Of a stretch of DNA of 40,405 nucleotides, positions 28,506-38,391 are shown piece after piece. Position numbers and translations under genes: made by a program. This stretch comes from Halobacteriales archaeon QS_8_65_32. GTDB lineage: Archaea > Halobacteriota > Halobacteria > Halobacteriales > Halococcaceae. The stretch lies in NCBI GenBank assembly GCA_003022925.1, contig PXRY01000046.1, positions 10,053-50,457 of the forward strand. The letters are read 5' to 3'. Below the pieces are notes generated by a model. The model was not told the origin of the DNA. It searched no databases and saw only the letters and a program-made list of their open reading frames with translations. The first letter of the stretch is position 1; each line of letters begins with the position of its first letter.

Positions 28506-28600
28506 CGGTCGTTCGTACTCCCGAGGCCTCCTTCAGGCTTCGGCCGGCGTGTCCGACCGTGTTTACTGTAGCAGCTTTTCGCAAAAAGAGCCGTCGAGAC

Positions 28601-28906
28601 CGGTTTGGAAGCCCCCGACACGCTTGGCTTCTGCTCACGGGCCTGAGGCCCGCTCACGGGTCGTTCCTCCTCGTTCGCAGGTTCGTGGGACCGCTGGTCC
28701 CACACTCATTGCGGGACCGAAGGTCTCTCGATCGACCACGTTAGAGGAGGTCAGCGGAGCCGACCTCCCGCTCGGCGAGCGAGACCCCCGAGCACGCCGA
28801 TGGCGCGCGCAGCGTGGTTCGCAGCCAGGGCGATTCCGAAGGAATCGCTTGCAGCCGGGCAGCAGACCTGCCCGGCGGCGCCGAGCGTGTCGGGGGCCTT
28901 CGAACC
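28601..28906. mobile_element. Hairpin-rich element bounded by a 26-bp imperfect inverted repeat
   Basis: The left end GGTTTGGAAGCCCCCGACAC... (28601-28626) matches the reverse complement of the right end (28881-28906) at about 22 of 26 positions. Inside are at least six short hairpins: CGGGCC-TGA-GGCCCG (28638-28652), GTGGGACC-GCT-GGTCCCAC (28685-28703), GGGACC-GAA-GGTCTC with one G.T pair (28713-28727), GGAGGTC...GACCTCC (28746-28768), GCGATTCC-GAA-GGAATCGC (28830-28848) and GCCGGGCAG...CTGCCCGGC (28854-28876). No ORF in it looks like a protein. It resembles a MITE-like or structured non-coding element. Target duplication is not evident, so the mobile call is tentative. Confidence 0.5.
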
Positions 28907-28999
28907 GTCCTGTGCTCTTTTCGTGGTTTCACTGCCGATAATGAATACCAGCGAGGAGGCACACACTAACGTACGTTCGGCGACTACGCCTCCGAACCG

Positions 29000-34022: not shown

Positions 34023-34359
34023 ACGCACGTTTTGCGCTGCGCTCGTTCGGCGCGCTGACGCGCACCTCACTCGCTCGGCAAAACCTGCACTAAAAGCACT
34101 CCTTGCTCACTCCGCTACGCTCCGTTCGCTCGTCGGCCCGCTCCTTCGTGGTTCGAGAGGCGCTTCGCGTCTCTCGTCATTACGAAACGGCGAAGCCGTT
34201 TCGAACGACTCCCGCTGGTCGCTCACGGGAACACCGGGGTTCGTCGAGCGTCCGAGGGCTCCCGAAACGGTCTCATCGATTCTCTTCCGGAAAACTGTCC
34301 TACCGAATACCGGTCTATCGATATGCCATCAGTATATGATCCGTCCTCAAGGAACTCCT
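34023..34359. repeat. Gap with several inverted repeats after aCPSF1
   Basis: No gene is seen in these 337 nt. GTTTTGC (34029-34035) pairs with GCAAAAC (34078-34084). Two near-perfect trinucleotide-loop hairpins follow: CGAGAGGCGC-TTC-GCGTCTCTCG (34154-34176, one G.T pair) and CGAAACGGC-GAA-GCCGTTTCG (34183-34203). TATATG (34333-34338) is the likely TATA box of the enolase-like pseudogene. Confidence 0.6.
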
Positions 34360-38175: not shown

Positions 38176-38204
38176 CCGAAAGCCCCCAACACGCTCAGCT
38201 CCCG
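38176..38204 (+). repeat. Dispersed repeat related to the ends of the hairpin-rich element
   Basis: CGAAAGCCCCCAACACGCTCAGCTCCCGC aligns with the left end of the 28601-28906 element (TGGAAGCCCCCGACACGCTTGGCTTCTGC) at about 22 of 29 positions. Only one end is present here, followed by CTCGCTCCGCTCGCC-type sequence. Confidence 0.6.
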
Positions 38205-38391
38205 CGACTCGCTCCGCTCGCCTCCGGTGCTTACTTCGCCAGGGATCACCAAGCGGTCGGCCGCTTTCAGTCCCGCCCGAGGCGGTTGCTTGGAGGAAAT
38301 TCGCGTCAGTCAGTATCTTCGTTGTTCCGGCCGTTGCCGCATTGGGTTATATCGGTTGTCTATTAATTCATTGGTATCGTACTGATCCAGG

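Follow-up and report, generated by a model that had tools for sequence, protein, structure and literature searches.

A hairpin cluster in a haloarchaeal genome as a putative hybrid copy of a high-copy, transposase-free mobile repeat family of Halobacteriales

The analysed window is a 40,405-nt stretch of the genome of Halobacteriales archaeon QS_8_65_32 (contig PXRY01000046.1, positions 10,053 to 50,457). Two divergent genes in it, one for a 586-aa protein (start 28505, - strand) and one for a universal stress protein (start 29000, + strand), are separated by a gap that contains many short palindromes. The initial annotation had described a dense hairpin cluster here, and six stems can indeed be seen in the sequence, none of them assigned to a strand: CGGGCC-TGA-GGCCCG (28638–28652), GTGGGACC-GCT-GGTCCCAC (28685–28703), GACC-GAA-GGTC (28715–28725), GGAGGTCAGC-GGA-GCCGACCTCC with one A.C mismatch on the + strand (28746–28768), GCGATTCC-GAA-GGAATCGC (28830–28848) and GCCGGGCAG-CAGAC-CTGCCCGGC with a 5-nt loop (28854–28876). 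The inverted repeat that encloses the cluster is also real, and a repeat search extended it to 52 nt (28601–28652 with 28856–28907, 71% complementary). When both strands of the 398-nt stretch were folded, as had been suggested, the z values against dinucleotide shuffles were -7.6 and -9.0, and none of 100 shuffles folded as well. Triloop hairpins occur at 0.38 per kb in the rest of the window, which is not above other loop sizes, versus about 9.7 per kb in the repeat family described below. The alternative of a decayed gene found no support.

On sequence comparison, the cluster is one copy of a high-copy mobile repeat family of Halobacteriales. A 391-bp query matched about 40 places in the same genome, only some of them over much of the query length. 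Copies were taken with their flanks, from these forty places and later from sixty more, and they are alike at the ends and unlike inside. A regular copy runs from 5' GTGGGACTGRAAGGGGCC to GGGGGCTTYC 3' and is bounded by IS6-type terminal repeats (GGCRGTGTTYAGWTAMGC). At no more than one mismatch, the start mark was counted 207 times in this 3.28-Mb, 78%-complete MAG, and its reversed control not once. Among the relatives, family marks were counted 52–57 times in G041 and G052 (one genus, which we take to be Salinarchaeum-like on the type of their elements), 70 times in G024, 74 in G084 and 91 in G236, with zero in many other genomes. Exact 22-mers are present in Salinarchaeum laminariae R26, Haloglomus irregulare, Haloarcula pellucida, Halomicroarcula sp. 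SYNS111 and several Halobacteriales MAGs. Outside the order, a single one-mismatch match was obtained among about 240 genomes, which equals the noise level of the control. A blastn search of the PLSDB plasmids gave zero matches, and the 18-mer mark gave 2 matches in 2.9 million viral contigs, of which the one examined lies within a coding gene and is probably due to chance. In Rfam, the window had no match at the gathering level, and the copies L048, L099, L103 and L106 had none at E<=1.

Two more copies lie inside the window itself. The one at 38179–38276 (- strand), recognised by mark matches, is a compact regular core with the 5' mark at 38259–38276 (2 mismatches), the skeleton AAGCACCG / AAGCACCGG and a 3' mark with 1 mismatch, and it resembles the short Salinarchaeum copies. 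The other, at approximately 34110–34310 (+ strand), is recognised from its sequence as a partial and degenerate 3' half with an A-type outer end and hairpins of the form CGAAACGGC-GAA-GCCGTTTCG; no 5' mark was recognised in it. Therefore, the cluster is no single-locus curiosity. The search for further copies that the initial annotation had proposed thus yielded many of them.

The window copy itself is not built like a regular one. Its homology to the roughly 40 places of its own genome, together with the end profiles, places the whole element at 28555–28953 (no strand assigned), so the limits given earlier, 28601–28906, are too short. On the left, an A-type 3' outer end with an IS6-like terminal repeat and GACCGTGTTTACTGTAGCAGC at its tip occupies 28555–28606 (- strand), as judged by a profile match (79 bits-class set) and by the alignment of ends. 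It is followed by the family 3' mark GCCAAGCGTGTCGGGGGCTTCC at 28607–28628 (- strand). On the right, a further family 3' mark, GCCGAGCGTGTCGGGGGCCTTC, lies at 28880–28901 (+ strand), and a second 3' outer end at 28902–28953 (+ strand; profile match E 3.9e-11) is nearest to B-type ends (L010, for example). Both marks have 1 mismatch to the family consensus and face outward, and the 5' mark is absent from the copy even when 7 mismatches are allowed. The left part matches A-type 3' ends, and the right half shares 93–95% identity with the 3' halves of four other copies. The window copy is thus a hybrid that joins a 3' half of subfamily A to one of subfamily B, and we infer that a recombination event produced it. 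Since a family 3' end stands on either side and the 5' end is missing, the copy carries an inverted repeat from end to end, and the 26-bp repeat of the initial annotation consists of these two outward-facing ends. The hybrid build likewise explains why no target duplication is evident around this copy. Homologues of the neighbour gene were found in relatives without the universal stress protein gene beside them, so the locus has no syntenic empty site there.

The regular copies carry the signs of transposition. Conservation among the copies of this genome has sharp limits, 45 bp upstream of the start mark and about 53 bp downstream of the end mark, and the element tips, GGCRGTGTTYAGWTAMGC and GGTCGTGTTTCGTGTAGC, are inverted repeats of each other. 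The flanking 8-mers are alike at 7 or more of 8 positions in 15 of 29 both-ended copies (for example GCCGGAAG/GCCGGAAG and GGGCGAAC/GGGCGAAC), against a null of 2.8% for the ends of different copies (p about 3e-16). IS6 elements make 8-bp repeats, and their haloarchaeal members are 700–750 bp long (PMC7986276). The same tips are present on elements of about 700–860 bp in other haloarchaea, whose ORF matches PF13610 (DDE_Tnp_IS240). In the IS6 element L254 of G019, the ends are GGTAGTGTTTAGTTTGGAGC and GGCGGTGTTTAGTTAAGCG, the duplication GGAGAGAC is found on both sides with an exact 8/8 match, and the tip GGCGGTGTTTAGTTAAGCG is identical to that of family copies. The cores of this genome have a median length of 238 bp, most of them being below 400 bp, and no conserved ORF was seen in family copies. 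No PF13610 or IS6 transposase match was found in this 78%-complete MAG (G000), and such a match is present in G001 of the same genus and in G019. The IS6-type ends, the 8-bp duplications and the IS6 element of a relative with the same end and an 8/8 duplication indicate that in this lineage the family is probably an IS6-type MITE in its behaviour and is presumably mobilised in trans. The suggestion of a MITE-like element, made in the initial annotation, is supported for the family in this genome by these features and by the high copy number.

The interior of the copies has two layers. The core, about 100–125 nt long, consists in order of GTGGGACTGRAAGGGGCC, a covarying stem, GACGAMGYAAGCACYG...GCGCAGCGAGTCG, a stem and GGGGGCTTYC. 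In the compact Salinarchaeum copies (median about 120 nt), GRAAG pairs with CTTYC through covarying G-C/A-U pairs, followed by a copy-specific stem and then by short GC stems; GA/GA loops separate the short GC stems of the core skeleton. Across 26 aligned cores, 95.6% of the pair cells hold standard pairs, and covariation reached 0.413, versus 0.04–0.06 for slid partners and 0.12 for shuffles; because these cores were picked by an exact 5'-mark match, the conservation of the 5' mark partly reflects the search, while the 3' mark and the middle are unaffected. A lack of both further copies and covariation would have told against the initial annotation, and the core covaries strongly. The skeleton motif GACGAMGYAAGCACYG lies in one orientation relative to the ends in 145 cases and in the other in 5, and the core is therefore polarised, in contrast to the accessory hairpins. 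G.U exceeded A.C by 19:4 in the well-aligned helices and by 20:12 when the misaligned helix 3 was included, in a post hoc tally that ignores relatedness, and counting the outer stem copy by copy without gaps gave 15:9, which is not significant. The covariation and the fixed orientation show that the core is conserved as a folded single strand, which may be RNA or ssDNA; the core may act as either or as neither.

Some further features of the copies were observed. The rare copies L113 and L110 have an inner skeleton (AAGCAC motif) that is turned round between the end marks, and in L104, L107, L112 and L130 the 5' marks are paired head to head, about 30–40 bp apart. The core of L105 is broken after the 5' mark by TCTTATTTGAACACTACC, the reverse complement of an IS6-type tip, as if by an IS6 insertion or deletion into the core. 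G-tracts (GGGTGGG...GGGG...GGGGG) are conserved on the sense strand in the 5' and 3' marks of all lineages; a G-quadruplex could arise from them, the stem being its loop. GTGGGACTGAAAG looks similar to the 3' part of haloarchaeal CRISPR repeats.

The second layer is made of accessory mini-hairpins. Hairpins with stems of at least 6 bp were counted by loop size in 105 cores of this genome. A loop size of 3 was found in 270 hairpins, versus 9.6 expected from first-order Markov sequences (28-fold), and no other loop size had a comparable excess, the next being loop 11 (34 versus 10). Of the 270 triloop hairpins, 268 are closed by C-G. The most frequent loops are GAA (75), TTC (65), GGA (46) and TCC (44), and about 90% of the triloop hairpins are C-G closed GNA on one strand or the other, with no strand favoured (GNA 130 versus its complement TNC 118, p = 0.48). 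These counts are inflated by hairpin families of common descent, and the different inner stems that obey the C(GNA)G rule number 33. One connector site holds both orientations (TCC 19, GGA 11, GAA 4, TTC 4), and wobble pairs are not favoured among the stem mismatches (G.T 27 versus A.C 36). No natural family of elements made of GNA mini-hairpins is known to us. The C-G closed GNA triloop is shared with the DNA mini-hairpins d(GCGNAGC), which are known as a biophysical motif and an aptamer tool, and these extraordinarily stable structures follow the sequence rule C(GNA)G (PMC4686876); that paper, with reference to Yoshizawa et al. 1997, puts the melting temperature of GCGAAGC near 78 C. From the use of the rule on either strand and the lack of a G.U excess in the stems, we infer that the accessory hairpins form, flip and change at the DNA level, for which template switching in replication ssDNA would be the simplest route. 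Recombination or slippage, another earlier suggestion, is supported for the accessory hairpins, which have perfect stems, both loop orientations at homologous positions and no favoured strand.

The vehicle of the element differs among lineages. Salinarchaeum copies lack IS6-type ends, and their conserved flank covers 5 nt before and about 15 nt after the core; therefore, IS6 is not the sole vehicle. The copies of G084 (L257–L285) have tandem units of about 27 bp upstream and about 57 bp downstream, with a 3' mark in each downstream unit, and the upstream and downstream unit numbers correlate (Spearman 0.65, p = 0.009, n = 15). These arrays look as if copies had inserted repeatedly within older copies, which we regard as a lead.

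We consider it probable that the cluster is a hybrid copy of a Halobacteriales mobile element, high in copy number and free of a transposase, which is an IS6-type MITE here and has a two-layer interior of folded core and C(GNA)G hairpins. Its terminal repeats would be recognised by IS6-family transposases from other elements, and each copy that these place at a new site would be flanked by an 8-bp target duplication. The accessory palindromes would fold as DNA hairpins in single-stranded stretches at replication, where template switching could perfect stems, flip loops and add or remove hairpins; the outcome would be a mosaic of stems that differ in sequence and have a common form. In the window copy, 3' halves of subfamilies A and B are joined. 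Incidental palindromes of GC-rich DNA or pieces of a decayed coding gene are an extremely improbable source: short palindromes are common at high G+C and many spurious ORFs cross the region, but the folding z values of -7.6 and -9.0, the 207 occurrences of the family mark, the 28-fold excess of 3-nt loops with no comparable excess at other sizes, and the covariation all speak against it, and the multi-copy family already refutes it.

The core could instead be a functional structured non-coding RNA, selfish or domesticated, that is carried by IS6 and other elements, with the accessory hairpins as tolerated peripheral RNA helices. The fixed skeleton polarity (145:5), the strong core covariation, the GA/GA internal loops confined to one strand and, for the well-aligned helices of the compact core, the G.U:A.C ratio of 19:4 agree with this. 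We nevertheless hold it to be rather unlikely, since the ratio falls to 20:12 with the misaligned helix 3 and to a non-significant 15:9 for the per-copy outer stem, the accessory hairpins have no strand preference, Rfam is blank even at E<=1, and no conserved promoter was seen outside the IS6-type ends. Of the structured RNA in the initial annotation, what stands is a compact, polarised and covarying core, for which RNA is a candidate only. Quite unlikely, in our view, is a core that serves as folded ssDNA of another transposition system (IS200/IS605-like TnpA, HUH or attC-like recombination), as in haloarchaeal PATEs, and that acquired IS6-type ends secondarily here. Its conservation over lineages without common outer ends, the subterminal hairpins and the concentric arrays of G084, which suggest insertion at a fixed point within older copies, would fit such a system. 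However, the copies of this genome have terminal repeats and 8-bp duplications, both of which IS605-type elements and PATEs lack (PMC3119063), and an unsystematic look revealed no autonomous element with these marks around a tnpA or tnpB gene. A broader form of the mobile-element reading is conceivable, and we offer it tentatively: in a selfish element that occurs across the Halobacteriales, selection may act on the folded, single-stranded core of fixed polarity as its unit, and the element may accrete ultra-stable C(GNA)G DNA mini-hairpins, switch vehicles (IS6-type ends in one lineage, others elsewhere) and insert into itself in some genomes, leaving concentric end layers.

Several known systems resemble the family in part. 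IS6/IS26-family MITEs likewise have IS6-type terminal repeats, 8-bp target duplications, no transposase gene and a length of a few hundred bp; the IS6 review counts two only, of 227 and 336 bp, described as ORF-less IS ends (PMC7986276). The family differs from them by its copy number of more than 200 per genome, by its conserved folded core and by a mosaic of hairpins with GNA triloops that varies between copies. MITEs, PATEs and small mobile repeats (SMRs) of Haloquadratum walsbyi are also transposase-free, high-copy haloarchaeal mobile repeats, and, as in the family, PATEs have near-terminal palindromes and the H. walsbyi element classes often insert into each other (PMC3119063). PATEs have neither terminal repeats nor duplications (PMC3119063), whereas the copies of this genome have both, and membership in a PATE or IS200-IS605 type was rejected for this genome on these grounds; the Salinarchaeum copies are without IS6-type ends. 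The terminal repeats of SMRs are unlike those of any transposon and SMRs have no duplications (PMC3119063). SMR membership failed as well, because the ends of the family match IS6 and duplications are present. Neither PATEs nor SMRs are described as a hairpin mosaic (PMC3119063). The nested palindromic repeats of green-algal organelle genomes (for example PMC2670323) are similar in that intergenic DNA is full of differing palindromes of one form, probably selfish; they are unlike the family in their organelle setting and are not known to have IS6-type ends, duplications or a common core. A paper search with the literal mark sequence gave 0 matches, and the open-access literature searched contains related concepts and no description of the family. 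Accordingly, we found no description of this Halobacteriales repeat family, with its unusual two-layer interior, in the literature searched.

The family presents hundreds of natural hairpins at genome scale that follow a rule until now known, as far as we can tell, from test-tube DNA work, and the birth, flipping and persistence of DNA palindromes become readable from sequence. It greatly extends the category of IS6 MITEs, and it draws attention to a conserved folded core, which may be an RNA not known so far. It also explains a class of GC-rich hairpin arrays in haloarchaeal intergenic DNA, which appear as spurious genes in lists of ORFs.
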